From: a virus
Reading direction: 5' to 3' (one strand)
DNA length: 37,552 nucleotides
IMG/VR virus record: IMGVR_UViG_3300042861_003135
Location: 1 to 37,552 of that record
Positions 13,456-30,184 of the stretch are shown one piece after another. The translations under genes and the position numbers were made by a program. Below the pieces are notes generated by a model. That model had not been told where the DNA came from. It made no database searches and worked only from the letters and a program-made list of their open reading frames with translations. The first letter of the stretch is position 1. Every line of letters begins with the position of its first letter.

Positions 13456-13480
13456 CCGTGGCATTCCGCTGGTCTGTGGT

Positions 13481-13738: not shown

Positions 13739-13784
13739 GTTTGTGTCTCCGTTTCGGAAAAAGGTTTGAATCGTTTACGCGATG

Positions 13785-13822
13785 ACACACATGAGCCATG
13801 CGGTTCGAATAACCTCAAGCCG
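13785..13822 (-). promoter_or_regulatory. Start-associated repeat, copy 5
   Basis: Core ACACACATGAGCCATGCGGT (13785-13804), 12-base spacer, AAGCCG (13817-13822), 46 bases before the start at 13738. A small hairpin, GATTCC-AAAA-GGAATC (13833-13848), lies directly upstream. Confidence 0.7.
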
Positions 13823-13988
13823 AGCCTTCGAGGATTCCAAAAGGAATCTGAATGTTTTTCTGGATCGCGTCAGTTCGCACAAAACGCGCCGCGTCGCGTT
13901 ACAGTTCGGGTTTGGCCACTATTAGTGACATACACGATTCGAGCCCAAGGTGACGTAAAATTTGCCTCACGTTGGCAAACGTGTGAAA

Positions 13989-14008
13989 GCCGAACTTCCG
14001 TGTTCGGC
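13989..14008 (-). terminator. Terminator of the amidoligase gene
   Basis: GCCGAAC (13989-13995) and GTTCGGC (14002-14008) form a 7-bp stem, flanked by AAA and TTT on the minus strand, 18 bases after the amidoligase stop. The U tract is short (TTTC). Confidence 0.6.
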
Positions 14009-14026
14009 GTTTCGTTTGATTGCGGT

Positions 14027-14884: not shown

Positions 14885-15158
14885 CGTTCTATTCCTTTGT
14901 GGTTCGAGGTGTGTTTTGCGTCGCGTTTTCTGCGTCGCGATGACACACATGAGCCATGCGTTTCGAGGAACATCCAGCCGATTCCTGCATGTTTTTCCGG
15001 TAATTCTGCATGTTTTCAGAGAGGCCACCGGTGCCCCAACATTACGCCACCGGCGCGTCCAAACATGCTCCGCATAACGAGGCGAACATGCGGCTAAAAC
15101 GCGACCGTGCGCAAACGGTGGCCCCACGTTTCGAGATGCCAAACCATGGAGGAATGCG
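14885..15158. promoter_or_regulatory. Divergent control region between leftward genes and the packaging operon
   Basis: No gene. Besides repeat copy 6 it holds two direct copies of TGCATGTTTT starting 21 bp apart (14986 and 15007), then two copies of the complementary AACATGC (15062 and 15085). It also holds an imperfect hairpin, AAAC-GTGG with CCAC-GTTT (15113-15131). The terminase operon starts at 15159. Paired operator-like words on one DNA face, between opposing transcripts, suggest a switch region. Confidence 0.5.
14943..14980 (-). promoter_or_regulatory. Start-associated repeat, copy 6 (diverged)
   Basis: ACACACATGAGCCATGCG followed by TT in place of GT (14943-14962), 12-base spacer, then CAGCCG in place of AAGCCG (14975-14980). 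It lies 58 bases before the amidoligase start, the longest spacing of the six. Confidence 0.65.
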
Positions 15159-15365
15159 ATGAGTGACGGAAACAACCAGGTAGATCCGACGAGGCTTTCT
15201 GTAGAGCAAGCGGCGAAACTACTTTCAGCCGCGTACCGAGAACGCATCGAGCCAGAGAAGATCCGACAAGACCTACAAGACGGTGCGCCGGTGAACGTTG
15301 ATGGAACGATCAACCTCGTGCACTACAGCGCATGGCAAGCAAAGGAGATGGGACGTGGCGAGTGA
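15159..15365 (+). CDS. Small protein upstream of terminase, possible small terminase subunit
   Basis: A 68-residue protein with a helix-turn-helix-like character: LSVEQAAKLLSAAYRERIEPEKIRQDLQDGAPVNVDGTINLVHYSAW. The position directly before the large terminase gene, with overlapping ends, suits a DNA-recognition subunit. It is shorter than most small terminases, so this is a suggestion from position and fold type. GGAGG lies before the ATG. It opens the rightward structural operon. Confidence 0.6.
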   Translation: MSDGNNQVDPTRLSVEQAAKLLSAAYRERIEPEKIRQDLQDGAPVNVDGTINLVHYSAWQAKEMGRGE

Positions 15366-17625
15366 TCCAAGGAAGCTAAAACCAAGCGAGCTATGTCGAC
15401 TACTCAACTCGACGCCACTCGGCGAGGTGATCAGCGAACGCCAACTATATCGGCATCGTCAACGCGCCGGCGCACGCATTGGTGATAACAAGACGGTCGA
15501 TCTCCTTCGCTATTGCGCGTGGATGCATATCGTACGACACACACCTCGCACGACAAACGGTGTCGATCCATACGATGCGATGAAGGAGCGAGCGCGTGCA
15601 CGCAATGCAGCGCTTGCACTTGCCGGTCGTGATATTGGAGAATTGCCGGAGGTCGATAATCCAGATCGTAAAGATCGCGCTTCGCGTGACTTCCGGTACT
15701 TTTGCGAGACCTACTTTCCGCTCACGTTTCATCTCGCCTGGTCGCCGGACCACATCAAGGTCATCAACAAGATCGAGCAAGCGGTTGTACATGGCGGTTT
15801 ATTTGCACTCGCGATGGCTCGCGGTAGCGGGAAAAGCTCGATTGCTGAAGTCGCTTGTATCTGGGCCGTTCTTTATGGGCATCGCAACTTCGTTTGTCTG
15901 ATCGGCAGCGATGAAGGGCACGCATGCGATATGCTCGATTCGATCAAAACCGAACTCGACAGCAACGAACTGCTCTTAGCCGACTTCCCGGAGGTTTGTT
16001 TTCCGATTCAAGCTCTCGATGGAATCTCGAATCGCGCAAACGGTCAACTTTACAAAGGCAAACGCACGCAGATCGGATGGACCGCCAAAGAGGTCGTTCT
16101 ACCAACGATCGAAAGTAGCAATGCCAGCGGAGCGATTATCAAGGTCGCCGGCCTAACCGGCCGCATCCGAGGTATGAAGTTCAAACGTCCCGATGGCAGA
16201 ACAGTTCGTCCGAGTCTCGTGGTACTCGATGACCCGCAAACGGATGAGAGCGCTCGGTCACTTTCGCAGTGCGCAAATCGTGAAAGCATACTCGCCGGCG
16301 CAGTCCTTGGCTTAGCTGGTCCTGGCAAGAAGATCTCCGGTATCATGCCTTGCACGGTTATTCGTCCGGGTGATATGGCCGACAATATCCTTGATCGCAA
16401 TCGCCATCCCGAATGGAATGGCGAGCGCACCAAAATGGTCTATTCGTTTCCAAAGAATGAATTGCTATGGGAACGCTATGCCGAGATCCGAGCCGAAGGG
16501 ATGCGTGGCGGTGATGGTGGTGAAGCTGCCACCGAGTTCTATCGTAAGAATCAATCTGCTATGGATGATGGGGCTGTAGTCGCTTGGCAGGAGCGATTCA
16601 ACTACGACGAACTCTCGGCGATTCAGCACGCGATGAATCTCAAATTGCAAGACGAAGCAGCGTTCTTCGCCGAATATCAAAACCAACCTCTGCCAGCGGA
16701 GACCGTTGTCGATGGGATGCTCAAACCAGAAGAGGTCGCCAGCAAGATCAACCGCATGGATCGTGGCTTGGTTTCGATTGGCGCGAATCATCTCACCGCT
16801 TTCATCGACGTCCAGCAGAAGCTGCTTTTCTATGTGGTCGCCGCATGGGAGGACGATTTCACGGGTTATGTGATCGACTATGGTTGTTACCCCGACCAGC
16901 AGCGTCCGTACTTCACGCTACGTGAGGCTCGGCAGACGTTGAGCTCCGAAGCGACTGGAACCGGACTCGAGGGATCGATCTACGCTGGCCTCGAATCGCT
17001 GACATCGAAACTGCTCGATCGCGAGTGGCAACGCGATGATGGTGCAGCGATGCGTATCGGTCGCTGCTTGATCGATGCCAACTGGGGGCAATCGACTGAT
17101 GTTGTCTACCAGTTCTGCAGGCAGTCGAAGCACGCCGCTGTGATCATCCCCAGCCACGGTCGTTTCGTTGGCGCGTCGAGTTTGCCGTTCAGCGAGTATC
17201 GTCGCCGGCCAGGTGATCGCGTAGGACTCAACTGGCGTATCCCCAACGTCCATGGCAAACGAGCCATACGACATGTGGTCTACGATACCAACTGGTGGAA
17301 GTCGTTTATCAACACTCGGCTTCGTGTTTCGATGGGTGATCGTGGTTGCCTCTCGCTCTTTGGTACGAACGCCGAAACGCATCGCATGCTCGGCGAGCAC
17401 CTAACTTCCGAGTACTTCATCAAAACCGAGGCCCGCGGCCGGAGCGTTGATGAGTGGAAGCAGCGCCCGGAGCAGCCCGACAACCACTGGTTCGACTGTT
17501 TGGTTGGTTCTGCAGTCGCGGCATCCATGCAAGGAGTGATTCTTCCAGGCATCGAAGGTAAAGCTGAAGTCCGTAAGGAACGAATGAGCTTTACTGAAAT
17601 GCAAAAGCGACGCCGGAGCAAATAG
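15355..17625 (+). CDS. terL: Terminase large subunit
   Basis: A 756-residue packaging motor. Residues 1-60 look like a helix-turn-helix (LGEVISERQLYRHRQRAGARI). The ATPase has Walker A ARGSGKSS (155-162) and Walker B LVVLDDPQ (288-295). The C-terminal RNase H-like nuclease shows FIDVQQK (D485), CLIDANWG (D574) and HWFDCLVG (D714). It cuts concatemeric DNA and pumps it into proheads through the portal encoded two genes downstream. The start is the GTG at 15355, because AAGGAG lies eight bases before it. The frame is open to 15298, which would bury it in the preceding gene. It overlaps the stop of the small upstream gene by 11 bases. Confidence 0.92.
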   Translation: MASDPRKLKPSELCRLLNSTPLGEVISERQLYRHRQRAGARIGDNKTVDLLRYCAWMHIVRHTPRTTNGVDPYDAMKERARARNAALALAGRDIGELPEVDNPDRKDRASRDFRYFCETYFPLTFHLAWSPDHIKVINKIEQAVVHGGLFALAMARGSGKSSIAEVACIWAVLYGHRNFVCLIGSDEGHACDMLDSIKTELDSNELLLADFPEVCFPIQALDGISNRANGQLYKGKRTQIGWTAKEVVLPTIESSNASGAIIKVAGLTGRIRGMKFKRPDGRTVRPSLVVLDDPQTDESARSLSQCANRESILAGAVLGLAGPGKKISGIMPCTVIRPGDMADNILDRNRHPEWNGERTKMVYSFPKNELLWERYAEIRAEGMRGGDGGEAATEFYRKNQSAMDDGAVVAWQERFNYDELSAIQHAMNLKLQDEAAFFAEYQNQPLPAETVVDGMLKPEEVASKINRMDRGLVSIGANHLTAFIDVQQKLLFYVVAAWEDDFTGYVIDYGCYPDQQRPYFTLREARQTLSSEATGTGLEGSIYAGLESLTSKLLDREWQRDDGAAMRIGRCLIDANWGQSTDVVYQFCRQSKHAAVIIPSHGRFVGASSLPFSEYRRRPGDRVGLNWRIPNVHGKRAIRHVVYDTNWWKSFINTRLRVSMGDRGCLSLFGTNAETHRMLGEHLTSEYFIKTEARGRSVDEWKQRPEQPDNHWFDCLVGSAVAASMQGVILPGIEGKAEVRKERMSFTEMQKRRRSK

Positions 17626-17680
17626 TTCTAGGGGATTGAATCAAAAAAATCTTCTCGTTCGTCCGTCAATCTACATGTGA

Positions 17681-17702
17681 ACCGGGTATTCCTACAGATA
17701 GA
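17681..17702 (+). promoter_or_regulatory. Promoter-like direct repeat, copy B
   Basis: ACCGGGTATTCC, T, ACAGATAGA: identical to 616-637 except for one base. It lies 55 bases after the terminase stop and 56 bases upstream of the start at 17737, so it may drive the head-gene segment separately from the terminase. Confidence 0.5.
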
Positions 17703-17736
17703 AGTCCACGTCTTCATTCTTAGGTAGGCCGATAGC

Positions 17737-17934
17737 ATGTCAGATAACTTGAAAGAGACGATTCGCGAGAGTGCGAAAGCACCCGCTAAGGCATCGGGAG
17801 ATGCCGGAAGCGTCGAGCAGCATAAGCTCACCGAGCAAATCGCTGCAGACAAATATCTAGCATCCAAGGCGGCCGCCTCTAAGCCGAAGCGTGGCCTTCG
17901 ATTTAACAAGCTCGTGCCACCAGGTGCCGACTAA
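17737..17934 (+). CDS. Small head protein, gpW-like position
   Basis: A 65-residue Lys/Ala-rich protein (ETIRESAKAPAKASGDAGSVEQHKLTEQIAADKYLASKAAASKPKRGLRF). It lies between the large terminase and the portal gene, the place of the 68-residue head-tail joining protein gpW in lambda. The sequence is too simple to confirm that relationship. It could equally be a small DNA- or head-associated protein. The ribosome-binding site (AGGTAGG) is distant. A promoter-like repeat lies upstream. Confidence 0.55.
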   Translation: MSDNLKETIRESAKAPAKASGDAGSVEQHKLTEQIAADKYLASKAAASKPKRGLRFNKLVPPGAD

Positions 17935-17967
17935 TCGTTCGCGCCTGATTGAGCTTGTTTCTATAGG

Positions 17968-18094
17968 CAGGGGTGTCGGGTTTAACAGAAGGGATTGATT
18001 CACGGATGTTTAAGTTGTTGTCAGGGATTCTGAGCAGGAACGGCGATCGTAAAGATCGGTCGCTCGTCCGTGGACGCTCGGCCCGACACCCCTG
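17968..18094 (+). promoter_or_regulatory. 13-bp inverted repeat enclosing the portal start
   Basis: CAGGGGTGTCGGG (17968-17980) and CCCGACACCCCTG (18082-18094) are perfect complements 101 bases apart. In mRNA they could form a long stem enclosing the portal Shine-Dalgarno sequence (17987-17995), its ATG (18006) and the first 25 codons, perhaps setting portal translation. Confidence 0.45.
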
Positions 18095-19490
18095 GTCGTT
18101 GGTGAGAATGCTTGGACGCTACGACGCTGCGACCACCACGATCGACAACGTTCGCCACTGGGCGGCCGCCGACGGACTATCGGCCAGCGCGGCCAACAGC
18201 CCTGAAGTACGCCGCACGCTACGCAACCGTTCGCGGTACGAGATCGCCAACAACTCGTATGCCCGAGGTATCTCGCTGACTCTGGCAAACGACTGTGTGG
18301 GTACTGGACCTCGATTGCAGATGCTGACTGCGGATGCATTCGCAAACCACTTTGTTGAGCAGGAGTTCTTTGCTTGGGCTGATACCGTTGGTTTGGCTGA
18401 GAAACTACGCACGATGCGGCTCGCTCGCGTCTCAGATGGTGAATCCTTTGGTTTGCTAACTAGTAACCCAAGAATCGATTCGCCAGTTCAACTTGATCTA
18501 AAGCTGGTCGAAGCCGAACAGGTTACTTCGCCACTCTTGGCACTGGATGGTTATCGCTATCTCGATGGCATTCGCTTCGATGAGCATGGCAACGCGATCT
18601 CTTATGATGTCCTCCGAGAACATCCAGGGGACGACGCTTTCTCGTTGACCGAGAACTATGACACCATCGACGCCAATTCTATTCTTCACTATTTCCGAAG
18701 CGATCGGCCAGGGCAAATCCGTGGCATTCCCGATATAACGCCAGCCCTGCCACTGTTTGCACAATTGCGACGATTCACGCTGGCAGTATTAGCGGCTGCC
18801 GAAACAGCGGCTGATTTCGCAGGGATTCTCTATACCGACGCGCCGGCCGGTGGCGAAGCCGACGCCGCTGAACCTTTCGAACCGATCGAACTGGAGAAGC
18901 GATCTCTGCTAACGATGCCAGGCGGATGGAAGATGGCTCAGATGCACGCTGAGCAACCAGCCACGACATACGCCGAGTTCAAGCGTGAGATTCTCAACGA
19001 AATCGCACGTTGTTTGAACATGCCGTTCAATGTCGCTGCTGGTAATTCGTCGGGTTACAACTACGCCTCCGGGCGACTCGATCACCAAACCTACTTCAAG
19101 TCGATCCGTGTCGAGCAGTCCCAAATGGCTCGCACCGTTCTGGATCGCATTCTGTACGCGTGGCTGCGCGAAGCGATTCTCATCGAAGGCTATCTGCCTA
19201 ACTCGCTTCGCACTCTCGACTCGTCGTTCGAGCATCAATGGTTTTGGGACGGACATGAGCATGTCGACCCAGCCAAAGAAGCCAATGCCCAGAAACTCCG
19301 CCTCGCCAATCATACGACAACTCTGGCCCATGAATACGCGAGGCAGGGGCGTGATTGGGAGGCGGAACTTAAACAACGCGCGAAAGAGATCTCGCTCATG
19401 CGTGAGCTGGGACTCTCGGCCGATTCAACTTCACTTTCTCCAGGAGATGTAACGGATGACGAAGACATTGCAGTCGAACAAGCAGAGTGA
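18006..19490 (+). CDS. Portal protein, lambda type
   Basis: A 494-residue portal of the lambda (Phage_portal_2) family. Typical segments include SYARGISLTLANDCVGTGPRLQM, ARVSDGESFGLL, DANSILHYFRSDRPGQIRGIP and a helical AAETAADFAGILYT. The C-terminal wing reads LNMPFNVAAGNSSGYNYASGRLDHQTYFKSI. Twelve copies form the ring through which DNA enters and to which the tail joins. The ATG at 18006 with AGAAGGGA upstream is preferred to a GTG at 17973. The 3' end overlaps the next gene by 35 bases. A 13-bp inverted repeat brackets the start region. Confidence 0.9.
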   Translation: MFKLLSGILSRNGDRKDRSLVRGRSARHPWSLVRMLGRYDAATTTIDNVRHWAAADGLSASAANSPEVRRTLRNRSRYEIANNSYARGISLTLANDCVGTGPRLQMLTADAFANHFVEQEFFAWADTVGLAEKLRTMRLARVSDGESFGLLTSNPRIDSPVQLDLKLVEAEQVTSPLLALDGYRYLDGIRFDEHGNAISYDVLREHPGDDAFSLTENYDTIDANSILHYFRSDRPGQIRGIPDITPALPLFAQLRRFTLAVLAAAETAADFAGILYTDAPAGGEADAAEPFEPIELEKRSLLTMPGGWKMAQMHAEQPATTYAEFKREILNEIARCLNMPFNVAAGNSSGYNYASGRLDHQTYFKSIRVEQSQMARTVLDRILYAWLREAILIEGYLPNSLRTLDSSFEHQWFWDGHEHVDPAKEANAQKLRLANHTTTLAHEYARQGRDWEAELKQRAKEISLMRELGLSADSTSLSPGDVTDDEDIAVEQAE

Positions 19491-21489
19491 GGTGGATGCC
19501 GAATCGGTACCAAGCTCGCTGCGAATCGTTTGTGACGATTCCAGTTCGATCAATTTACATGCCGCCGAGGCTGCCGAAGAAGGCAAGCCGGCGCTGCGAA
19601 AGTTCTCGATGGTTGCGTACACCGGTGGCGCGATGCGTCTTGGTGGCTGGCCTTACCCTGTCGTTGTGGACCTAGCAGGCATGCGAGTGACTCGTAAGTC
19701 GCGCCCAATCCTCAAGGACCACGATCGCGCCAGTATCGTTGGTCACACCGATGACATCATGGTCGGCGATTCGAGACTGGAAGTCGCCGGCGTAATCTCG
19801 GGTGTAGGCAACACCGCTCAAGAAGTCATCGCCACCAGTGAGAACGGTTTCCCTTGGCAAGCATCGCTCGGAGCGAACGCCGACAAGGTTGTCTTCATTC
19901 CTGAAGGAAAGACTGCGACCGCCAACAGTCGCGAGTTCAAGGGTCCAGTCTACATCGCTCGCAAGTCAACGCTCGGCGAAGTCTCTTTCGTGGCCCTTGG
20001 TGCCGACGATGACACCGAGGCTCGGATTGCAGCTGGCCAGTCTGGCGATGACGAGGAGCTCGATAGCGAACAGCCGGATGACGTCACCACCGAGTCCGAT
20101 GATTCGGAGCTCGACCCGGTGAACGCAAGCCTGGATATGGGCAGCAAGCCCAAGCGTCCTGTCACTAGTGGAGTCGTTTCCAAGATGCGCATCGAAGCCG
20201 CTGCTGAATCCAAACGTATCGCCGGCATTCGCAAAGTGTGTGCTGGCAAGCATCCAGAGATCGAAGCTCGTGCCATTGAAGAAGGCTGGAGCGTTACCAA
20301 AACGGAGTTGGCAGTGCTGCGAATCGAACGACCCAAGGCTCCTGATCAACAGGCAAGCCAACCGATGTACCGACGCGAAGTCCTCGAGGCAGCTTGCTGC
20401 TTATCGGTAGGACTCGACGAAACCAAGTTGCTCAAGGCTTATGGCGAGCGCACGCTCAACTCTGCCGATCCACTTCGTCACATCGGCTTGCGTGAGCTCG
20501 TCGCCGAGTGCGCACGGCTCGAAGGCTTCGATGTTCCTCGCGTCTTCGGCGATGGAACGGCAACGATTCGCGCCGGCTTCTCGACGATGTCACTTCCAGG
20601 CATCCTCGAGAACGTCATGAACAAGACGCTTCTGTCTGCCTATGAGTCGACACCGATCGCAGCGTTTGATTTGTGCAGCATTGGAACTGTGAGCGACTTC
20701 AAGGAAATCGCTCGCTATCGATTGCTTGGTACCGGCGGGTTTGAAAAAGTCGCGCCGGATGGTGAGCTCAAGCATGGCAAGCTTTCCGACCAAAAGTACA
20801 GCAACAAGGCTGATACTTATGGCCAGATCCTTGCGTTGACGCGCCACGACATCATCAACGATGACCTCAACGCATTCATGGACATACCGCGTCAAATGGG
20901 TCGCAGCGGAGCCGAGTCGATCGACGACCTGTTCTTTACGTTGCTCCTCAAGAACACCGGGTTCTTCTCCTCGGCTAACGCCAACTTGCTCACGGGTCCA
21001 GACACAAAGTTCGGTCCCGAATCACTCACCGTTGCCAAGACAACCTTCCGCAAACAGAAGGCTGGACCGAGCAACAAAGCCAAGGACCAAAAGCCGATTA
21101 ACATTCGGCCCGAATTCCTGGTTGTTCCTGTCGAGATTGAAACCGACGCCGAACTGCTGATGGGCTCTGCGCAATTGATGATCGATGCGCAAGGAACGCC
21201 GACCAAGATCCCGGTCGACAACCCTCACCGCAACAAGTACCGCGTCATTTCAACGCCGCACTTGTCGGACAGCTACTACCAGGGAGCCAGCGGCTCGGCT
21301 TGGTATCTGTTCGCTAATCCGAATGTGCTGCCGGCGTTTGAGATTGTGTTCCTCAATGGTCGACGCACGCCGGTCATCGAACGCGTTGAAATGCCTGCCA
21401 ACACACTTGGCATGGGCTTCCGTTCTTACATCGACTTCGGTGTGAACTCGCAAGACCCACGCGCTGCTGTGAAGGTCACCGGCGAGTGA
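19456..21489 (+). CDS. Prohead protease-major capsid protein fusion
   Basis: A 677-residue fusion. Residues about 45-200 are a prohead protease of the HK97/U35 type: PILKDHD...IVGHT with the likely catalytic His, and FPWQASLGA with the likely Ser. An acidic linker follows (about 200-230), then a helical scaffold-like part. Residues about 375-677 form a Mu gpT-like major capsid domain, with SLPGILENVMNKTLLSAYE, ALTRHDIINDDL and WYLFANPNVLPAFEIVFLNGRRTPVIE. The N-terminal part would scaffold the shell and then free the capsid domain by cleavage, as in phages with similar fusions. The start has CAGGAGAT upstream and lies inside the end of the portal gene, indicating coupled expression. Confidence 0.85.
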   Translation: MTKTLQSNKQSEVDAESVPSSLRIVCDDSSSINLHAAEAAEEGKPALRKFSMVAYTGGAMRLGGWPYPVVVDLAGMRVTRKSRPILKDHDRASIVGHTDDIMVGDSRLEVAGVISGVGNTAQEVIATSENGFPWQASLGANADKVVFIPEGKTATANSREFKGPVYIARKSTLGEVSFVALGADDDTEARIAAGQSGDDEELDSEQPDDVTTESDDSELDPVNASLDMGSKPKRPVTSGVVSKMRIEAAAESKRIAGIRKVCAGKHPEIEARAIEEGWSVTKTELAVLRIERPKAPDQQASQPMYRREVLEAACCLSVGLDETKLLKAYGERTLNSADPLRHIGLRELVAECARLEGFDVPRVFGDGTATIRAGFSTMSLPGILENVMNKTLLSAYESTPIAAFDLCSIGTVSDFKEIARYRLLGTGGFEKVAPDGELKHGKLSDQKYSNKADTYGQILALTRHDIINDDLNAFMDIPRQMGRSGAESIDDLFFTLLLKNTGFFSSANANLLTGPDTKFGPESLTVAKTTFRKQKAGPSNKAKDQKPINIRPEFLVVPVEIETDAELLMGSAQLMIDAQGTPTKIPVDNPHRNKYRVISTPHLSDSYYQGASGSAWYLFANPNVLPAFEIVFLNGRRTPVIERVEMPANTLGMGFRSYIDFGVNSQDPRAAVKVTGE

Positions 21490-21497
21490 TCTCCTTA

Positions 21498-21569
21498 GAT
21501 GGGTCGGATCTGTCGGATTCGACCCATCCGTCCTAACAAACTCAAGACTCAAGACTCAGGACTCCAGAC
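21498..21569 (+). repeat. Hairpin and heptamer repeats after the capsid gene
   Basis: GATGGGTCG (21498-21506) pairs with CGACCCATC (21520-21528). Then ACTCAAG, ACTCAAG, ACTCAGG and ACTCCAG run in tandem (21540-21567). They fill the 84-bp gap to the next gene. The hairpin may stabilise the capsid message. The heptamers look like slippage products and lie where a ribosome-binding site would be. Confidence 0.6.
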
Positions 21570-21573
21570 TGAT

Positions 21574-21903
21574 ATGCAAGCTCAATTTGTTCATGACGGT
21601 AAGGCCGTCGATTTCACTCCCACCGTTGATGTCGCGGTTGGATCAATCGTGATCCAAGGCGACTTGGTGGGGATTACCAAACGCGACATCAAGGCCGGCT
21701 CGCTCGGCTCGATCGCTGTGGAAGGTGTCTTTGACATTCCCAAAGACCCCGCTCTGGCAATCGAGTTCGAAGCGGGCACCAAGGTCTACGTCGATGAAGA
21801 CGGGGCTGTGGTCGCTGACGATGTTGGCACCAAGTATCTGGGCAAAGTCGTCACCGACGCTGCCGCCACTGATTCCTTTGTCCGCGTTCGCCTGAGCCAG
21901 TGA
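21574..21903 (+). CDS. DUF2190 capsid-associated protein, copy 1
   Basis: A 109-residue beta-rich protein with the DUF2190 pattern: VDFTPTVDVAVGSIVIQGDLVGITKRDIKAGSLGSIAVEGVFDIPKD, then AGTKVYVDEDGAVV and SFVRVRLSQ. DUF2190 proteins lie just after capsid genes in many phages and are probably decoration or cement proteins. The ATG at 21574 is used, and the frame is open to 21499 across the hairpin and repeats. A second member follows nine bases downstream, giving a tandem pair. Confidence 0.8.
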   Translation: MQAQFVHDGKAVDFTPTVDVAVGSIVIQGDLVGITKRDIKAGSLGSIAVEGVFDIPKDPALAIEFEAGTKVYVDEDGAVVADDVGTKYLGKVVTDAAATDSFVRVRLSQ

Positions 21904-21912
21904 TGAGACACC

Positions 21913-22266
21913 GTGAGCAACAACGCACAAATCATAAACATTGGAGCGATCCACGTTGCTGACGGCACGACCGTCGACTTCGTACCTGAGGTTGATGTGC
22001 CTGCAGGTTCGATCGTCGTCGTGGGAAAGCTTGTGGGCATCGCCAAGTTTGGGATTGGTGCGGGCTCACGAGGCAGCATCACGGTTCGCGGCGTCTTTGA
22101 CGTCGTAAAGGACCCAACCACCAATATTCCCGCTGGGACGATCCTTTACTGGTCGCAGATCAGTTGGCATGTGGTCAAGAACGCTTACTCCCATTCGATG
22201 ATCGGCAAAGCCATAGAGGCCGCGCCGCCAGGCACACTCACAGTCCGCTTACGTTTGAGTCAATAG
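21913..22266 (+). CDS. DUF2190 capsid-associated protein, copy 2
   Basis: A 117-residue paralogue of the upstream protein. The shared order of motifs is VDFVPEVDVPAGSIVVVGKLVGIAKFGIGAGSRGSITVRGVFDVVKD, then AGTILYWSQISW and LTVRLRLSQ. The start is a GTG without a clear Shine-Dalgarno, so it may depend on translation of copy 1. The two copies have diverged most in the C-terminal third. The pair may decorate different capsid sites or have become specialised. Confidence 0.78.
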   Translation: MSNNAQIINIGAIHVADGTTVDFVPEVDVPAGSIVVVGKLVGIAKFGIGAGSRGSITVRGVFDVVKDPTTNIPAGTILYWSQISWHVVKNAYSHSMIGKAIEAAPPGTLTVRLRLSQ

Positions 22267-22596
22267 ATGATGGCATCAATCGCAAAAGTAACAATCGATC
22301 GAGCTCGCGCAACGCAGTCCTTGCGGATGGCCAATGGTCTAGTCAGCCAATGGCTCTCGGTGGGCGAGTTCCGAAGTTGCTTTTGCGTGGCAAGCCAGTC
22401 AGTTCCATCGGCATGGATCATCGAAGGTCGTTTACCCAACGGCGATAACGTCCAACTCGCCAGTTACGAGACCGATTTGTTTGATCCGGCCAATCCACGC
22501 TACGTCACGATGAAGGCTATGTGTGGGCTGCCTATTCGATTCGTTGCGGCTACGCCTCAAACGAACGCGCGATTGTGGGTGGTATTCAAAAGTTAG
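22267..22596 (+). CDS. Hypothetical protein after the DUF2190 pair
   Basis: A 109-residue protein, mixed alpha/beta: ATQSLRMANGLVSQWLSVGEF, then SAWIIEGRLPNGDNVQLASYETDLF and PIRFVAATPQTNARLWVVF. The ATG directly follows the stop of the second DUF2190 gene. No family is recognised. The C-terminal strands have the flavour of a small beta-sandwich, so a minor head protein is possible. After its stop there are 133 bases without a gene. Confidence 0.6.
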   Translation: MMASIAKVTIDRARATQSLRMANGLVSQWLSVGEFRSCFCVASQSVPSAWIIEGRLPNGDNVQLASYETDLFDPANPRYVTMKAMCGLPIRFVAATPQTNARLWVVFKS

Positions 22597-22729
22597 CGAC
22601 GACTACCGCTGGCCCGCACCAGGGGCACGAGTTGGGCCACGGCTCTCCAAACGATCCCTGCGTTTGCGGTCCAGCGTTAGTTGTCACTTCACAATGTTTC
22701 TGTTTTCTCTGCTTAAGGATCCGTGTTCT

Positions 22730-23827
22730 ATGAGAATCGCAATTCACGTCGCCATGTTGGCGATCCTCACTTACCTTGCATCTACTGTCTCAGCACAGGA
22801 GGTGGTTTGCAAAGATGGCCAATGTTCGATTATCCAATTGGTTCCTCTCACTGAAGAGATTCAGATCGATACATCCACCATCGAAAGCTCGGCCGCTAGC
22901 GATGAGGATCGATTCACCCAAGTCATTCGAGCCACAGTTCGTGTCACCATTAGCGGCGTTTGCGGGAGCGGAACGGTTGTCGGTCGCGATGCAGATGGAA
23001 ACGCGATCGTTCTTACCAACGCTCACGTAGCGGGCACTCAACGAGGTCGCACCGTTAACCTCGAACGGTGGAACTCAGATGGTTCCGTTGAGCGAGGCCG
23101 AGGAGCTATCATCTCTTCCGGATATGGCCGAGGGATGAGCGTCGACTTTGCCTTGCTTAAATGCAACGCTGAGTTTGCAAAAGATGTCCGCCCGATCCCG
23201 CTCGCCGACCGTTATCCAACCAAGGGGGCAATGGTCAGCACTTACGGCTGCCCTCGCTGTGAATGGCCTAGCTTGCAAGTGCTTAGCTTGAATCGTAGCG
23301 AAGGACAAATTCTTACTTGGAAGCCCGAAGCGATTGGAGGTCGTAGCGGTTCTAGCGTGATCGACTATACCGATGTTGGTCCTCGTGTCGTTGGGCTCCT
23401 CACTTGGGGAGGCGGAGGCGAAGGGCTTGGTCAATCGACTCCGTTCTTGCTCCAAGCCATGAAGGGCCGTCTGCCGAAATCGCTCGAGGCTCTGCCACAA
23501 GGTGTACGCGAAGTTTCCGATGAGCAGGAAAAGTACCACGTTGCGACTTGGCCGACTCAACCTCTGGCTGTGTCGAATCAAACAAGCGATCCCGCGTCAC
23601 AAGATGTCATTGACTCCATCGTTGAGCCTGATCAAGAAACTATCCTGCGTCCACGTCCTCGGGACGAAGACGGAAAACGCAATCCTGCGGATAGACCTGT
23701 CTTGGGATTATTCGAACGCATTCAACGCTGGATTCGCGACAAGCTCCTTATCGGATTGCTTGTGATTGGAGCCTTCGCCGCAGGCGTCCTTTTCGGACGA
23801 TCGGGAAGAAAGATTCTGCCTGTGTAG
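22730..23827 (+). CDS. Exported, membrane-anchored trypsin-like serine protease
   Basis: A 365-residue protein. Residues 1-22 form a signal peptide (MRIAIHVAMLAILTYLASTVSA). The catalytic triad of a chymotrypsin/HtrA-like fold is visible: TNAHVAG (H99), SVDFALLK (D139) and GGRSGSS (S206). A proline/charged stalk (270-325) follows, then a transmembrane helix (LLIGLLVIGAFAAGVLFG, about 339-356) and a short basic tail. It would act on the outer side of the cytoplasmic membrane. There is no PDZ domain. Similar proteases occur in planctomycetes, and one inside a phage head-tail cluster may aid exit or entry or act on surface proteins. AAGGAT lies 10 bases before the ATG. Confidence 0.82.
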   Translation: MRIAIHVAMLAILTYLASTVSAQEVVCKDGQCSIIQLVPLTEEIQIDTSTIESSAASDEDRFTQVIRATVRVTISGVCGSGTVVGRDADGNAIVLTNAHVAGTQRGRTVNLERWNSDGSVERGRGAIISSGYGRGMSVDFALLKCNAEFAKDVRPIPLADRYPTKGAMVSTYGCPRCEWPSLQVLSLNRSEGQILTWKPEAIGGRSGSSVIDYTDVGPRVVGLLTWGGGGEGLGQSTPFLLQAMKGRLPKSLEALPQGVREVSDEQEKYHVATWPTQPLAVSNQTSDPASQDVIDSIVEPDQETILRPRPRDEDGKRNPADRPVLGLFERIQRWIRDKLLIGLLVIGAFAAGVLFGRSGRKILPV

Positions 23828-23887: not shown

Positions 23888-24403
23888 ATGTTTCATTGGA
23901 TTGGATACTTGCTGTGTTGCTATTTGTCAGCGGATCTTTTGGCTGGCTTCTGGCATTGGTGGGAAGATCGTTACGCGGATGTGAAGTGGCCACTGATCGG
24001 CGATTGGATTGCCAAACCCAATCAGCTGCATCATGACCAACCTTTGGCATTCCTAGATCAAGGTTATTGGTCTCGCAACTCAACAACGATCATTCCCGCA
24101 GCGATCGCGTTCTTGCTAACGGTACCGCATCCAATCTGTGGAGTATTTGTGTTTGTGAGTCAAGCAAACGAGATTCACGCCTGGGCTCATAGCAAGGGAA
24201 AGGTCGCCTCATGGATCGACGCACTGCAATCGATAGGTTTGTTGCAATCTCCAAAGCATCACGCACAACATCACGTTGATCCATTTGAATCGAAGTACTG
24301 CGTGATGACTGACCTGCTCAATCCACTGCTTGATCGACTCAAGTTCTGGCGACGATTGGAGTGGATTGTTGAGCGAACGCTGGGAGTTGTTCCAAACAAA
24401 TGA
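23888..24403 (+). CDS. CarF/Kua (TMEM189/PEDS1)-type lipid desaturase
   Basis: A 171-residue histidine-rich membrane protein. The conserved motifs of the lipid desaturase (Kua/TMEM189, bacterial CarF) family are in order: DLLAGFWHWWEDRY (H23), NQLHHDQP (H48, H49), NEIHAWAH (H97, H101) and PKHHAQHHVDP (H124, H125, H128, H129). Two hydrophobic segments (about 5-20 and 68-92) fit membrane insertion. Characterised members desaturate ether lipids to plasmalogens, using a di-iron centre bound by these histidines. The protein is shorter than many relatives but has all the motifs. Its stop overlaps the next head-tail gene (ATGA), so it is built into the structural operon. The lipid substrate is unknown. 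Confidence 0.78.
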   Translation: MFHWIGYLLCCYLSADLLAGFWHWWEDRYADVKWPLIGDWIAKPNQLHHDQPLAFLDQGYWSRNSTTIIPAAIAFLLTVPHPICGVFVFVSQANEIHAWAHSKGKVASWIDALQSIGLLQSPKHHAQHHVDPFESKYCVMTDLLNPLLDRLKFWRRLEWIVERTLGVVPNK

Positions 24404-24783
24404 GCGATTTACTGAAGAACGGCCAGGAGTGGCTTGCCTCAAAACTCACCCAACACGCATCTCGTCAGGTCGTATATCGCCGAGGAGAGCTGGGGGCCAC
24501 TCTCCAAGCAACGATTGGCAAGTCGATGTACGACCAGGACGATGGCGAAGGCATTGTGACTCGCAGCCAAGTCCGTGATTTTCTGATCGATACCTATGCC
24601 CTACTTTCCTCGATTATCGGAACGTTGCCACGCCGCGGTGACACCATCGTGGAGATCGATGGCGACCACACCTTCATCTTTGAAGTGATGGCCCTTGGTG
24701 GCGACCCACCTTGGCGCTACAGCGACCCATTCCGTTTGAAACTCCGCATTCACACCAAACAGATCGAATCCCATCCGTCATGA
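24400..24783 (+). CDS. Probable head-completion or head-tail connector protein
   Basis: A 127-residue protein. A helical N-terminus (LLKNGQEWLASKLTQHASRQVVYRRGE) is followed by a beta-rich part (GDTIVEIDGDHTFIFEVMALGGDPPWRYSDPFRLKLRIHTK). Small proteins of this shape, placed between capsid and tail genes, are usually connectors or completion proteins. It overlaps by four bases with genes on both sides. The assignment rests on position and general fold, not on a specific motif. Confidence 0.6.
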   Translation: MSDLLKNGQEWLASKLTQHASRQVVYRRGELGATLQATIGKSMYDQDDGEGIVTRSQVRDFLIDTYALLSSIIGTLPRRGDTIVEIDGDHTFIFEVMALGGDPPWRYSDPFRLKLRIHTKQIESHPS

Positions 24784-25208
24784 CGACAGTTTTACAAGTT
24801 GCCGATAGTGTCACCGCCCAGCTCAATGCCGCTGAGTTCGATTTTGACTTCGTTGCCGAGCGGATGTACGTTCCCAACTTCGACCTCGAAGACATGAAAG
24901 AACTCCGCGTGACCGTTGTGCCTCGCGATGTTGAGCTATTCCCTCACGACCGCGCCCACAACAAGTACCACTGCCGGGTTGATGTCGCGGTGCAGAAGAA
25001 GTTTTCGAAGGGAACCAACGAGGAGATCGATCCGCTGGTTGATCTTGTGGAAAAAATTGCCGACGAGTTTCGCTTGAAAAGGCTCGATTCATTTCAAGCC
25101 GCTCGCTGCGTGAAGGCCGAGCATGCCGTTCTGTACTCCAGCGAACACTGGGAACAACTGCGTCAGTTTACAAGCTTGTTGACCCTAACCTTTGAACTGG
25201 CGCGATGA
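24780..25208 (+). CDS. Probable tail terminator or minor tail protein
   Basis: A 142-residue protein from the ATG at 24780, which overlaps the upstream stop (ATGA). Pattern: VADSVTAQLNAAEF, LRVTVVPRDVELFPHDR, CRVDVAVQKKFSKGTNEEIDPLVDLVEKIADEF and a C-terminal strand LLTLTFELAR. The alternation of strands and one long helix is that of tail terminator or tail completion proteins. It precedes an HK97 gp10-like gene, the usual order. No catalytic motif is visible. Confidence 0.6.
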   Translation: MTTVLQVADSVTAQLNAAEFDFDFVAERMYVPNFDLEDMKELRVTVVPRDVELFPHDRAHNKYHCRVDVAVQKKFSKGTNEEIDPLVDLVEKIADEFRLKRLDSFQAARCVKAEHAVLYSSEHWEQLRQFTSLLTLTFELAR

Positions 25209-25771
25209 TCAAGATCACGGTCCGAACTCAATTCGATAAGCGAAAGCTCAAGAAGAAGGCGGAAACAGCAACCTTCACTTCTCTGAGCGAGGCCGGCGGT
25301 GCAGTTCGAAAGACAGCCAAGCGGAGCATTCGGAAATGTAAAAAGGCATCCAAGCCCGGGAGCCCGCCGCACACGCAAACAGGCATGCTCAAGCGAGTGA
25401 TTCGGTACGACGTCACCAACAACCGAACCGTTGTCGCAATCGGTCCTGTGAACGAGATCGCTGGACGGATTTGGAACTTGCATGAATTCGGTGGCGTGGC
25501 AACCAAGCGTCGAAAGCTCAAGCCGCATCGATTCAAGGTTGGCGAGCATGGTCCCATCCGTGCCATACAACACGGAAGCAAGACCAAGTTTGCGAGGATC
25601 GAACTGCGATCTGCGGCGCAAGCCAACCGAGCAACTCGCTTGATTGTCGAGGAGAACGAACGGCGCAGTGACAACAAGCCTCGCCATTATCCCAAGCGAC
25701 CATTCATGAAGCCGGCTCTGGAAGCCAATCGGAGTCGGCTCCCCACGTTCTGGGCCAACTCAGTCAAGTAA
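25205..25771 (+). CDS. HK97 gp10-like tail/head-tail protein
   Basis: A 188-residue basic protein. The features of the gp10-like family are visible: a basic N-terminal helix region (AVRKTAKRSIRKCKKASKPGSPPHTQTGMLKRVIRYD), IWNLHEFGG (about 95-103) and near the end HYPKRPFMKPALEA. These proteins act in head-tail joining or tail assembly and precede the tail tube gene. The length is somewhat greater than usual because of a basic insert (KRRKLKPHRF). The start overlaps the upstream stop (ATGA). Confidence 0.75.
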   Translation: MIKITVRTQFDKRKLKKKAETATFTSLSEAGGAVRKTAKRSIRKCKKASKPGSPPHTQTGMLKRVIRYDVTNNRTVVAIGPVNEIAGRIWNLHEFGGVATKRRKLKPHRFKVGEHGPIRAIQHGSKTKFARIELRSAAQANRATRLIVEENERRSDNKPRHYPKRPFMKPALEANRSRLPTFWANSVK

Positions 25772-25797
25772 AAGTTCGTCAAAAGGAATCATTCACA

Positions 25798-26214
25798 ATG
25801 CCAGAAGTAAGACTTGGTCTCGAAGCCGTCCTCACCATCGACGGTGCCGAGATCACCAACGTCAAGGATTTGACCGTCAGCCTCGAGAAGGCCGAAGCGG
25901 ATGCCAGTACTCGCGCGAACAACGGTTGGCGTGCGACTGTGGGAACGCTTAAGGACGCATCCATCGAGTTCACGGTCCTCAATAAAGAGGGTGACTCTGC
26001 TTTTGGCATGCTTCAAGGCCTATGGAGTTCAGGTGATCCGTGTGATGTCGGTATTAGCGATGCCGGTGGAACGCTCACTCTGACTTGCGAAGTTATGACC
26101 TTCAATGTCAACCAGAACTTGGAGGAGGTCATTTCGGCTGATGTGACTCTCAAACCAACGCAATCGACTGGCGGTGGTGGCATGAATGTGGGACCGGGCT
26201 TGGCTGGTCCTTGA
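25798..26214 (+). CDS. Major tail tube protein
   Basis: A 138-residue beta-rich protein: VLTIDGAEITNVKDLTVSLEKAEADASTRANNGWRATVGTLKDASIEFTVL, then VGISDAGGTLTLTCEVMTFNVNQNLEEVISADVTLKPT and a Gly-rich tail. This is the pattern of siphovirus and Mu-like tail tube proteins: IxGxxxxNVxDxxVxxEKxEADxTxR. Hexameric rings of it form the tail tube. AAAGGAAT precedes the ATG. Being highly expressed, it has its own spacing before and after (26 and 51 bases). Confidence 0.8.
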   Translation: MPEVRLGLEAVLTIDGAEITNVKDLTVSLEKAEADASTRANNGWRATVGTLKDASIEFTVLNKEGDSAFGMLQGLWSSGDPCDVGISDAGGTLTLTCEVMTFNVNQNLEEVISADVTLKPTQSTGGGGMNVGPGLAGP

Positions 26215-26265
26215 TCGCTGTCGTTGTGGTTGGTTTAGAGGATTCATAATACTCAGGGAGGCATC

Positions 26266-26766
26266 ATGCAGAAGTTCGTTGACCGCGCCGGTCGCATTTG
26301 GATTGTGGATATCGACAACACGACGCTGCGCCGCGTGAAGACTCTCACCGGAGTGCATCTTCTTGAAGCAATCGATGGTGATTTGATCACGCGACTCTCG
26401 ACCGATCCATTGCTCCTGGGCGATGTGCTCTTTGCAATCTGCAAGCCGCAAGCGGACCAGCAGCAGATCACCGACGAAGCTTTCGGCGAGGGGCTCGCTG
26501 GCAATTCTATCGACGATGCCACCGGTGCACTCCTCGAAGCACTGATCAATTACTTCCCGGAGTCGCGACGCCGTCTTCTGCGGAAGGCGGCCGAGAAGCA
26601 GAAGCTGATCGAGACACGGGGGATCAGTGCGATCGAGAAGCGACTGGACGATCCGAACTTGGTCGACAAGTTCGTAGAAGATCTCGAACGCAAGCTCGCT
26701 GTGCCGACATTGAACGACTCATCGTCCGACTTGCCGGCATCGTCGGAGTCGATCCAGGTCCCTTAA
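26266..26766 (+). CDS. Tail assembly chaperone, G-like
   Basis: A 166-residue protein between tail tube and tape measure genes, the place of lambda gpG. Residues about 1-60 (RIWIVDIDNTTLRRVKTLTGVHLLEAI...LSTDPLLLGDVLFAICKPQ) and a helical middle part match the general style of tail chaperones. The C-terminal part (LNDSSSDLPASSESIQVP) is low-complexity. The stop is embedded in GGTCCCTTAA. The overlapping -1 frame continues with a good protein-like sequence into the next gene, so a longer frameshift product is likely. AGGGAGG precedes the ATG. Confidence 0.75.
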   Translation: MQKFVDRAGRIWIVDIDNTTLRRVKTLTGVHLLEAIDGDLITRLSTDPLLLGDVLFAICKPQADQQQITDEAFGEGLAGNSIDDATGALLEALINYFPESRRRLLRKAAEKQKLIETRGISAIEKRLDDPNLVDKFVEDLERKLAVPTLNDSSSDLPASSESIQVP

Positions 26767-26780
26767 CACTTCGCCAACTT

Positions 26781-27044
26781 GTGCTGATGGCTGAGGCCAA
26801 ACGCCAACACGATTGGAATGTCGCGAGCACGATCATGGCGTTGATGGCCGAGATGAACCGTGATCGTAAGAGACGTCGCAAGCCATTCAAGCCCGACGAC
26901 TTCAATCCCTACGCAGACCAAAAGCCAATCGTTGCTCGCGGAACTGTTGAACAAGCAGCTGCGATGCTCGGTGCTAACTTTCAACCAAGAACGTCAGAAT
27001 CGCCATGTCGCAAGTCAGAGCCGGAGGAGCATACGTCGAGCTGA
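26781..27044 (+). CDS. Tail assembly chaperone T domain (probable frameshift extension)
   Basis: An 87-residue frame from a GTG at 26781, with another start at the ATG at 26787. Neither has a ribosome-binding site. The same frame reads upstream as LIVRLAGIVGVDPGPLTLRQLVLMAEAKRQHDW, which resembles the T part of tail chaperones and overlaps the end of the upstream gene in the -1 frame. This suggests expression as a G-T fusion by -1 frameshifting rather than as a separate protein. The 3' end overlaps the tape measure gene by 40 bases. Confidence 0.65.
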   Translation: MLMAEAKRQHDWNVASTIMALMAEMNRDRKRRRKPFKPDDFNPYADQKPIVARGTVEQAAAMLGANFQPRTSESPCRKSEPEEHTSS

Positions 27045-30000
27045 CCGCGAGGAGTGCCCAGTTCCTCAAGGGACTCGAAGCTGCGCAAAAGCGGCTCAAA
27101 TCGTTCGGGGCGTCCACGCGACTGGTCGGCACCAAGCTCACTGGCCTTGGCGTTGCCGCCGCCGCACCTGTGGGAGCCAGCTTGGCAGTCTATACCAGTT
27201 TCGATGATGCGATTCGGGCCGCAGGCGCAGCTGCCAATGCAACCGGCGCGACATTGGAATCGCTGCGTAACAAAGCAAAGCATTTGGGAGCCACAACAAG
27301 TTTCTCGGCCAGTGAGGTCGCTTCTCTGATGACTGAACTCGGTCGAGCAGGTTTCTCACCCAAGCAGATTGAAGAGATGACCGGCGCGGTCATGAATCTA
27401 GCAAGAGCCACTGGGACGGATGCAACCGTTAGCTCTGGGATCATGTCAGCCACGATCCGTCAATTCAGCTTGGAAGCAACCGATGCTGTGCGAGTCTCGG
27501 ATCGATTGACCGCAGCAGCCAACATGTCCTTCAACTCGGTTGAGTCGCTTGGGGAAGCGTTGCAATACGCCGGTCCTGTGGCAGCCGATGCCAACATGAG
27601 CCTCGAAGAAACGCTTGCCGTTCTTGGCACGCTCGGAAACCTCGGGATTCAGGGTAGTGAAGCCGGTACAGCATTACGTCGATTACTCACTCTGAGCGCG
27701 GCAGAGTCTGAGAAGTTTCAAAAGGTATTCGGCGTTGCGACCAAGGATGCCCAAGGGAATGCACGCGACCTAGTCGACATTCTTGGCGAAGTTGCCGCTG
27801 CATCGGCCAACATGGGAAGCGGTGATCGTGCCCAAGCCTTTAACGAAGTCTTCGGTTTGATGGGCATTACCAGTGCTTCGGCCATTGGAAAGACGGTCAC
27901 CGACACCAAGAAGCTGCTTGCCGACCTGAAGAAGTCAAATGGCATCGCCGACAAGACCGCACGCGATATGGATGCAGGGATCGGTGGCGCGTTTCGAATC
28001 CTGAAAAGCTCGATCGAGGGCGTGGCCATTGCGATTGGTGAATCGCTGGACCTCTCGGTCACCAAAATGATGAACGCAATCTCTCGGGCTCTCTCCGGTC
28101 TGATTGAATGGATCGGCAAGAACCAGGAAGTTGTCAAGAAAGTCGCGCTGATCGTTGCCGGCGTCGTTGCTGTCGGCGCGGCTTTCATCGGTATTGGCAG
28201 CGCTGCTGGTGTGGCCGCGTTCGCTGTTGGTGGGCTAGCTTCGATGTTCTCACTAGTAGGAACCGCGATCGGTGTCCTGGTAACCATGATCGGCGCTCTG
28301 TTCACACCTATCGGACTTGTTGTCGCTGCAGTTGCCGCACTGGGTGCCTACTTCGTCTACTCATCCGGCATCGCTGGCGAAGCGATCGAGTATTTGAAAG
28401 GCGTCTTCGAAACGCTGAAGGCTGACACGATCAAAGCCTTTGGTGCGATCGCCAATGCACTGGCTGCCGGCGACATCACCGCAGCGGCCAACGTTCTGTG
28501 GACTTATCTCAAGCTCCAGTGGATCAAAGGCACAACCTATCTCAAAGGAGTGTGGGCCGACTTCACCAATTACCTGTCCGATGTTTGGGGCGACACCGCT
28601 TATGCGATTGGCGATGTGCTGATCAGTGCCCTATCAGGACTTGCAAGCGTATGGAATGCGACGCTCGGTTTCATGGCCGATGGTTGGACAATCCTCACGA
28701 CCTCGGTACAGAAGGGGTGGAACTCGACAATCGGATTTCTGAAAAAGGGATTCATTCGATTGCGTGAGCTGGTGGATATAGCCGGCGATGTTTCTGTGCA
28801 GATTGGTGGCGTGCTCATCAATGCGCTTGCAGGCGTAGAGACCGCCTGGGTCGAAACCATCGACTATCTCGCTGATACATGGTCGGTGTTCGTCGCCCAA
28901 GTCAAATCGATGTGGAACTCGACCGTCGGCTTTCTGCGCAAGGCCTGGATCAAGCTGAAATCGCTATTCGATGACGATGTGAATGTCGAAGTTGAAATGG
29001 CCAAGATCGACAAGGAGATTCGAACAGCCGACGAAGCTGAAGAAAATAAGAAACAGCAAGCCATCGCCGATCGCATGAAGCGACGCGACGCACGCAAGCA
29101 ACAGATCGAATCCAATCGTGTTCAGATGCAGGAAGGGATTAAGCAGCAACTTGAGGAACGTCGCAAGGCCCGCGCTGGTCGCGACATTGATGGCGAGATG
29201 GCGGTCATCGATCAGGAGACCGAAGCCAAGAACCAAACCGTTGATGCGTCCAAAGAGGAGCAGTTCAAGCAAAACGAAGCGGCGGGTCTCACGCGACAAA
29301 AGACTATCGATGACACCACCGCTGGCGTTCAAAAGACTCTTGATCAAATGCGTGAGGAAGCTCGCATTGCCCGCGAAGCCGGTCGCCAGTCGCCAGAAGA
29401 TCGTGCCAAGGAGCGTGACCAGCAAGTAGCCGCAGCTCAAGCGGAGTTCGATGCGGCTGTAGAAACAGCCAACGCAGCCAAACCCCAAGAACCAACACCC
29501 GCTAAAGAGCCTGGTCTTCCGATTCCAGAGATGCCGAATCCGCCGAAGTCCGGCGCACTGAAGGTTCCCAAGGTTGAAGTGGATGGCATCAAAGATCCAA
29601 AACTGAAGCCGCCCAAGAAAAAGGATCTTAAGCTTGGTTTGGATCGGTCTGCCAAAAATTCAATGGATCGATTCTCCGATGGCCCCGAAGAGCCGACGGA
29701 GAAAACAGAAGCGGCTGGAAACTTCGATAGTCGTGGACTCGGTCTTGGTAGTGGTGCATCGCTCATTCCCGTGATCGAGCCTCCTGATCAAAGGAACGAA
29801 GTCGATCCGGATGGCGTCGATGCTGATGTGAATGCCGGTGCGGACGCGAATGATCCAGAACTTGAAGTTCCAGAAGTTGAACCGGAACTCGGTCTGCAGC
29901 CAGTGGACGCTGAAGTATCGTCGCCCGAGGATTTCATAGAACCGACGGTTGACGATCAAGAACCTTCGCTCAATCTCGAATCGATCATGGCCTCCTTTGC

Positions 30001-30184
30001 AGCGGTTCGGGTGCGTTTGGAGGAATTCGATGCTGCACTATCGCAAAGCGTTGCGAGGCTGCAAATGCCACAAGTTGCCGGCGAAGGTCTCTCGGACGAT
30101 GTGAAGCGAGCCATCATTCAAACGGCTGAGAATACATCTCAGCTTGCCGAACGCGCACGCACAGGAGGCTTCGTATTCAGCTAA
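27005..30184 (+). CDS. Tail tape measure protein
   Basis: A 1,059-residue protein. Residues about 1-370 match TP901-type tape measure proteins: GAYVELTARSAQFLKGLEAAQKRLKSFG, ATTSFSASEVASLMTELGRAGFSPKQI and SLEETLAVLGTLGNLGIQGSEAGTALRRLL. About 375-455 is a hydrophobic helical region (VAGVVAVGAAFIGIGSAAG...GLVVAAVAALGAYFVY). Two tandem segments then share WNST-x-GFL-(K/R)K with spaced Trp residues. About 660-770 is a charged coiled coil, followed by a Pro/Lys/Asp-rich acidic region. It sets tail length and may help DNA cross the membrane. The start lies within the preceding frame. Confidence 0.9.
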   Translation: MSQVRAGGAYVELTARSAQFLKGLEAAQKRLKSFGASTRLVGTKLTGLGVAAAAPVGASLAVYTSFDDAIRAAGAAANATGATLESLRNKAKHLGATTSFSASEVASLMTELGRAGFSPKQIEEMTGAVMNLARATGTDATVSSGIMSATIRQFSLEATDAVRVSDRLTAAANMSFNSVESLGEALQYAGPVAADANMSLEETLAVLGTLGNLGIQGSEAGTALRRLLTLSAAESEKFQKVFGVATKDAQGNARDLVDILGEVAAASANMGSGDRAQAFNEVFGLMGITSASAIGKTVTDTKKLLADLKKSNGIADKTARDMDAGIGGAFRILKSSIEGVAIAIGESLDLSVTKMMNAISRALSGLIEWIGKNQEVVKKVALIVAGVVAVGAAFIGIGSAAGVAAFAVGGLASMFSLVGTAIGVLVTMIGALFTPIGLVVAAVAALGAYFVYSSGIAGEAIEYLKGVFETLKADTIKAFGAIANALAAGDITAAANVLWTYLKLQWIKGTTYLKGVWADFTNYLSDVWGDTAYAIGDVLISALSGLASVWNATLGFMADGWTILTTSVQKGWNSTIGFLKKGFIRLRELVDIAGDVSVQIGGVLINALAGVETAWVETIDYLADTWSVFVAQVKSMWNSTVGFLRKAWIKLKSLFDDDVNVEVEMAKIDKEIRTADEAEENKKQQAIADRMKRRDARKQQIESNRVQMQEGIKQQLEERRKARAGRDIDGEMAVIDQETEAKNQTVDASKEEQFKQNEAAGLTRQKTIDDTTAGVQKTLDQMREEARIAREAGRQSPEDRAKERDQQVAAAQAEFDAAVETANAAKPQEPTPAKEPGLPIPEMPNPPKSGALKVPKVEVDGIKDPKLKPPKKKDLKLGLDRSAKNSMDRFSDGPEEPTEKTEAAGNFDSRGLGLGSGASLIPVIEPPDQRNEVDPDGVDADVNAGADANDPELEVPEVEPELGLQPVDAEVSSPEDFIEPTVDDQEPSLNLESIMASFAAVRVRLEEFDAALSQSVARLQMPQVAGEGLSDDVKRAIIQTAENTSQLAERARTGGFVFS

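Follow-up and report, generated by a model that had tools for sequence, protein, structure and literature searches.

Among the members of the PF10520 (Lipid_desat) family are PEDS1, which makes human plasmalogens, and FAD4, which makes a photosynthetic lipid of plants; bacterial members of the family are reported to be rare. In murine PEDS1, eight histidines are essential, at residues 96, 121, 122, 187, 191, 215, 218 and 219, with spacings of 25, 1, 65, 4, 24, 3 and 1 (PMC8960569). A ninth histidine (H131 in mouse, H113 in CarF) is present in the animal, myxobacterial and Leptospira enzymes and absent from the plant and alphaproteobacterial ones (PMC9131029, PMC8960569). The H131 and F118 positions are both needed for full PEDS1 activity (PMC8960569, PMC9131029). 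Changing F118 to Ala leaves 6% of the activity, and this Phe is common to FAD4 (PMC8960569), whereas plant and alphaproteobacterial homologues without the ninth histidine fail to complement carF (PMC9131029). Peroxiredoxin Q stimulates FAD4, the plastid phosphatidylglycerol 3-trans desaturase (PMC12456178). Lipid desaturases encoded by phages have been described before, from cyanophages (Roitman et al. 2018, as cited in PMC7300359) and from cryopeg-brine phages (PMC7300359). Those are auxiliary membrane diiron desaturases proposed to change host membranes; they are stearoyl-CoA-desaturase-like, have three His boxes and belong to another family (PF00487).

We have analyzed a partial IMG/VR virus record of 37,552 bases, hereafter the window, in which a plus-strand gene at positions 23888-24403 (DES) encodes a predicted PF10520-type membrane lipid desaturase of 171 amino acids, from ATG to TGA. 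The operon around it is an ordinary siphophage head-to-tail module, with all genes on the plus strand. It starts with a head module (15298-22596) that encodes the large subunit of a lambda-type terminase, the portal, a protease-capsid fusion, two decoration proteins and a small ORF. TRYP follows (22730-23827; Trypsin_2, E 2e-8), encoding an exported trypsin-like serine protease with a signal peptide and a C-terminal membrane anchor; its frame is open from 22523 and its likely start is 22730 (or 22694). Next come DES, the gene of a head-tail joining protein (24400-24783; PF25138 Phage_H_T_join_3, E 8e-53) and a neck/tail module extending through the tube to the tape-measure protein (24711-30184). 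The DES stop and the ATG of the head-tail gene share four bases (ATGA). Two claims of the original prediction were thereby confirmed, namely that a gene of the lipid desaturase superfamily sits in a phage structural operon, given the full-length PF10520 match and the flanking portal, capsid, decoration and tape-measure genes, and that it overlaps the next head-tail gene by four bases. The suggested link to planctomycetes also held, with contigs of Pirellula MAGs carrying the same genes. A planctomycete host for the window phage is well supported, because contigs assigned to the genome bins of Pirellula and further planctomycetes have near-identical genes.

Several other features of the window were recorded. 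Its left end (1-597) encodes a small protein with sigma-70 region 2, which might be a sigma factor of the phage. Between 12081 and 14980, an element around ACACACATGAGCCATGCGGTT...CAAGCCG occurs six times, with zero expected by chance; each copy lies upstream of a small minus-strand ORF, and the element looks like a repeated promoter or leader for an array of small genes. An open frame of 1804 aa on the plus strand (9683-15097) looks like a shadow, the real genes being seemingly on the minus strand, where an amidoligase-like ORF (14027-15313) was noted by eye only. After the tail module (34158-37552), a glycosyltransferase-25/sulfotransferase fusion and two family-2 glycosyltransferases might serve the phage in modifying surface sugars.

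The DES product matched PF10520 with 142.2 bits (gathering cut-off 26.4; E 2.2e-41), its residues 12-170 spanning positions 1-173 of the 175 in the Pfam profile. The gene has a G+C content of 48.5%, versus 53-57% in the adjoining genes. No fewer than nine metagenome contigs of independent origin carry the gene with its junctions, the proteins being 98-100% identical, so that an assembly error is ruled out; together with the Pirellula MAGs, the identical junctions ruled out an artefact or chimera.

Residues were mapped onto PEDS1 and CarF via published residue numbers. The first metal-site motif, H23-W-W-E-D27 (codons 23-27, 23954-23968), aligns with PEDS1 H96 and D100, Asp27 being the equivalent of the essential Asp100 (His+4). 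The HH pair (codons 48-49, 24029-24034) corresponds to murine H121/H122, the H-x3-H motif (codons 97-101, 24176-24190) to H187/H191, and the H-x2-HH motif (codons 125-129, 24260-24274) to H215/H218/H219. The resulting eight histidines (H23, H48, H49, H97, H101, H125, H128 and H129) are spaced by 25, 1, 48, 4, 24, 3 and 1 residues, which is identical to murine PEDS1 bar one shorter internal loop (48 vs 65). The eight histidines and the aspartate were invariant in 30 of the 30 viral and prophage sequences compared, and these metal-ligand residues remained unchanged down to ~42% identity while other positions varied freely.

The likeness to CarF/TMEM189/PEDS1 thus covers the PF10520 domain and the eight essential histidines and essential aspartate with similar spacing; the differences lie elsewhere. 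The ninth, family-specific histidine (mouse H131, CarF H113) is Gln58 in DES (codon 58, 24059-24061), and across the phage clade this site holds G, Q, N, S, K or L, with His only in a divergent huge-phage protein (L031). The activity-critical Phe of PEDS1 and FAD4 (mouse F118) is Asn45 (codon 45, 24020-24022), and Asn is found there in every HWxED-type phage sequence; activity of the DES subfamily would hence rest on compensation. About 70 N-terminal residues, including the first transmembrane helix, are missing (the first motif histidine is residue 23 vs 96), and in DES the first motif carries Glu-Asp (HWxED) and the HH pair is preceded by PN. FAD4 resembles DES in belonging to PF10520, in its eight histidines and in the absence of the ninth. 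It differs in keeping the Phe118 equivalent, and as a plastid enzyme it needs peroxiredoxin Q, with no such partner beside the window DES. The HWxED-type PF10520 proteins of Alphaproteobacteria, Verrucomicrobiota and flavobacteria mostly have the N45-type motif too, but they are chromosomal, with non-phage neighbourhoods, and the one alphaproteobacterial homologue that the literature describes as tested failed to complement carF.

An AlphaFold2 model, built on 38 aligned sequences from the window and the loci, had a mean pLDDT of 93.7. The best viral fold match in BFVD was a Lipid_desat protein of the giant virus Harvfovirus (probability 1.00), and the best PDB fold match was the Scs7p hydroxylase, a weak one (probability 0.23); PDB sequence and fold searches returned no close relative among solved structures. 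PHROGs held no family for DES, the plasmid collection gave zero matches, and Pfam gave zero match to PF00487.

Relatives were numerous in viral metagenomes, with 28 loci in IMG/VR by a single-protein scan and 109 by a profile scan; clustered at 85% identity, the sequences gathered made up 25 groups. Of the 50,697 phage records in the deposited set, only two matched: a huge phage known from metagenomes, and vB_EliS-L02, a cultured lytic phage of Erythrobacter. The homologue of the latter (UIS25202.1) is 42% identical over 96% of DES and is annotated as hypothetical, and the paper describing this phage has no mention of a desaturase or lipids (PMC9127768). The statement that no such enzyme was known as a phage gene did not survive these searches, since more than 100 viral contigs have relatives and a cultured phage carries one unannotated.

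The homologues occupied at least four structural backgrounds across phages and prophages. The window has a lambda-like terminase and a PF25209 capsid, and loci L020-L025 are prophages with an HK97-type terminase. Mu-like prophages of Sphingomonadales have the gene at two sites, either with a virion morphogenesis gene on one side and a tail sheath gene on the other (L091, L098) or close to the terminase, between it and the Mu portal (L094) or just before it (L095). The fourth background is the 150-kb lytic Erythrobacter phage, in which the gene is just upstream of the portal, among structural genes unrelated to those of the window and with no adjoining protease gene.

We have then placed DES in a maximum-likelihood tree of PF10520 that was built without CarF or animal PEDS1 and in which planctomycetes were represented by 18 chromosomal genes. 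The phage sequences formed one group (31 rows, support 89/77), in which the planctomycete-phage part (26 rows) was supported at 97/97, and the Mu-like prophage copies grouped with the Erythrobacter phage copy at 99/95. The nearest non-phage relatives were chromosomal genes of Alphaproteobacteria, Verrucomicrobiota and Flavobacteriales, whereas the 18 planctomycete chromosomal genes fell apart from the phage group. There was one exception, a short Pirellulaceae MAG contig (L090/L109) that looks chromosomal, with non-phage neighbours, and falls inside the phage clade. A PF10520 match of any kind was present in 23/398 planctomycete, 6/385 alphaproteobacterial and 2/289 Roseibacillus-phylum genomes. 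The ratio dN/dS was 0.05-0.08 in most informative pairs, from three sub-lineages, and at most 0.3 in the most divergent or the least informative pairs; DES is under strong purifying selection in phages. Because the phage clade stands apart from host genes and dN/dS is low, DES is an old phage gene that selection has kept. That a phage recently took up its host's own gene was ruled out, as the PF10520 genes on planctomycete chromosomes, 18 of them included in the tree, are of another type; the original prediction had itself raised a recent host-derived insertion absent from relatives, and instead the phage copies group apart from planctomycete genes. DES belongs to a distinct, old and phage-dominated PF10520 subfamily, as judged from its sequences, with the signature HW-x-ED-R ... 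PN-x2-HH.

Within the phage group of the window, DES is optional. A TRYP profile scan revealed 59 relatives with the same operon (decoration-TRYP-head-tail joining) and no DES; in 12 that were inspected, the TRYP stop lies 8-13 nt before the next ATG. The difference is therefore a precise presence or absence of one gene between TRYP and the head-tail gene. The DES-less loci form one clade of the TRYP tree (support 98/99), so that one loss or one gain suffices, the tree being blind to which. Being optional, mobile in position and under selection, DES is a phage cargo (auxiliary) gene. TRYP itself is near-constant in the head-neck region of more than 70 related phage contigs (window 22523-23827; L166-L237).

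Taken together, we consider it probable that DES is a phage cargo diiron PF10520 membrane enzyme, co-expressed late, which would introduce a double bond into an acyl chain of a membrane lipid of the host, to the phage's advantage. With its metal site intact, the protein very probably acts as an enzyme on a membrane lipid; catalysis itself, and desaturation over hydroxylation, we infer from the family motifs. DES would be expressed late, probably co-transcribed with the structural genes. No sigma-70-like site was found on the coding strand, in a scan that does not cover planctomycete promoters, and the late timing is thus read from gene order and overlap only. The protein would then insert in the inner membrane and load two irons, as its intact motif suggests. 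With O2 and electrons from the host (no electron donor gene adjoins DES in the window), it would, as a member of this family, oxidize a host lipid, most likely by desaturation. Its action would be timed to particle making, or to lysogeny in the integrating relatives. The benefit is a guess: altered membrane fluidity during assembly or lysis, or superinfection exclusion, which is more plausible in the prophage relatives.

This last possibility leads to an alternative in which TRYP and DES together would be a lysogenic-conversion or superinfection-exclusion module, altering the host envelope against further phage entry. TRYP-DES pairs are also found in L020-L023 and L034, phages whose head genes are unrelated, indicating that the pair travels together. 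A closed planctomycete genome (G348:C1) has two related prophages in opposite orientation (L147, L148), both with TRYP-DES, besides a separate chromosomal PF10520 gene. The catalytic H, D and S triad of TRYP was invariant in the DES-linked copies. A tyrosine recombinase was present in half of the 16 DES-bearing records examined, the L038 group has DES adjoining an integrase, and the glycosyltransferase and sulfotransferase genes at the end of the window would fit an envelope role. Against such a module, the window DES belongs to a late operon of structural genes, a search of this partial record for an integrase came up empty, and DES occurs in a lytic phage too, that of Erythrobacter. Moreover, TRYP occurs mostly without DES in the phage group of the window, so the two need not work together, and an obligate protease-desaturase pair was weakened by the 59 syntenic loci with TRYP only. 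We regard the exclusion module as possible, although unlikely.

The chemistry might also differ from acyl-chain desaturation, DES being instead a lipid hydroxylase, another diiron oxygenase or a redox-dependent phosphatidylglycerol desaturase like FAD4. The fold match to Scs7p and a PF04116 FA_hydroxylase match of 22.9 bits, below the cut-off of 31, point in the first direction, but the PF10520 score is far higher. As for the redox-dependent enzyme, other phages (L032-L043, L027/L028) encode a membrane-anchored CxxC thioredoxin-like protein directly upstream of DES, which recalls the stimulation of FAD4 by peroxiredoxin Q (PMC12456178). These genes (L032 7497-7982, L036 3109-3615, L028 6918-7847) could encode redox partners; the model of such a neighbour had a moderate pLDDT of 66, and its C-terminal domain matched thioredoxins. 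The thioredoxin-like neighbours are, however, absent from the window lineage, and FAD4 keeps the F118 residue that the phage family is without. An activity of this kind is rather improbable for DES. Other neighbours include CAP-domain genes adjoining or near DES (L080 6827-9391, L081 2335-3212); in L080 the CAP-domain gene is just upstream of DES, and a patatin-like phospholipase gene directly follows DES. A membrane or exported partner beside DES is a recurring theme, suggestive, by analogy, of FAD4-like redox coupling.

Originally, DES was labelled a CarF/Kua plasmalogen desaturase with all the histidine motifs of that family, and as such it would be a true plasmanyl desaturase of the CarF/PEDS1 type making vinyl-ether lipids in its planctomycete host. 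Membership of the same superfamily and the eight histidines and aspartate at PEDS1 spacing speak for this, and planctomycetes do turn up in the ether-lipid literature. The claim about the motifs stood for these eight histidines and not for the ninth, PEDS1-specific one, and the label itself was not supported. With Gln58 at the ninth position, variable in all phage clades, Asn45 in place of F118, a later N-terminus lacking ~70 PEDS1 residues, and homologues without the ninth histidine failing to complement carF (PMC9131029), plasmalogen synthesis is very unlikely. The tree position away from the planctomycete PF10520 genes, in a tree without CarF, also argues against it. Judged by its residues, a stronger candidate for a phage enzyme of plasmalogen synthesis would be the divergent PF10520-like protein L031 (5983-6441) of a 595-kb uncultured phage (LR756511.1), the only phage copy in which the ninth His and the F118 Phe are both present. 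Finally, a catalytically dead membrane protein reused for assembly or lysis, as the location in a structural operon might suggest, is extremely improbable given metal-ligand residues that are invariant to ~42% identity amid free change elsewhere and the lack of DES in syntenic relatives that keep the remaining operon.

The preferred reading, a lipid-desaturating cargo enzyme, could be extended to a general phage membrane-lipid tool. HWxED/PNxxHH diiron lipid oxidases of phages of Planctomycetota and Alphaproteobacteria, repeatedly teamed with an exported protein that has a membrane anchor (protease, thioredoxin-like or CAP), would then act on a lipid that no characterised PF10520 enzyme handles and would make infected cells or lysogens resistant to competitor phages. 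We offer this extension tentatively and consider it doubtful.

In the open-access literature we found nothing on PF10520/Kua proteins in phages, which is weak evidence of absence as most subscription journals were not covered. What appears to be new, provisionally, is the PF10520 phage subfamily and its optional place in structural operons. The phage branch is without two PEDS1 determinants yet has an intact metal site, which makes it a natural experiment on substrate specificity in this family. With it, membrane-lipid editing by phages would also reach beyond desaturases of the cyanophage type, to the phages of planctomycetes and of sphingomonads. Since a cultured lytic phage, vB_EliS-L02 of Erythrobacter litoralis DSM 8509, carries a member, the question is directly testable.
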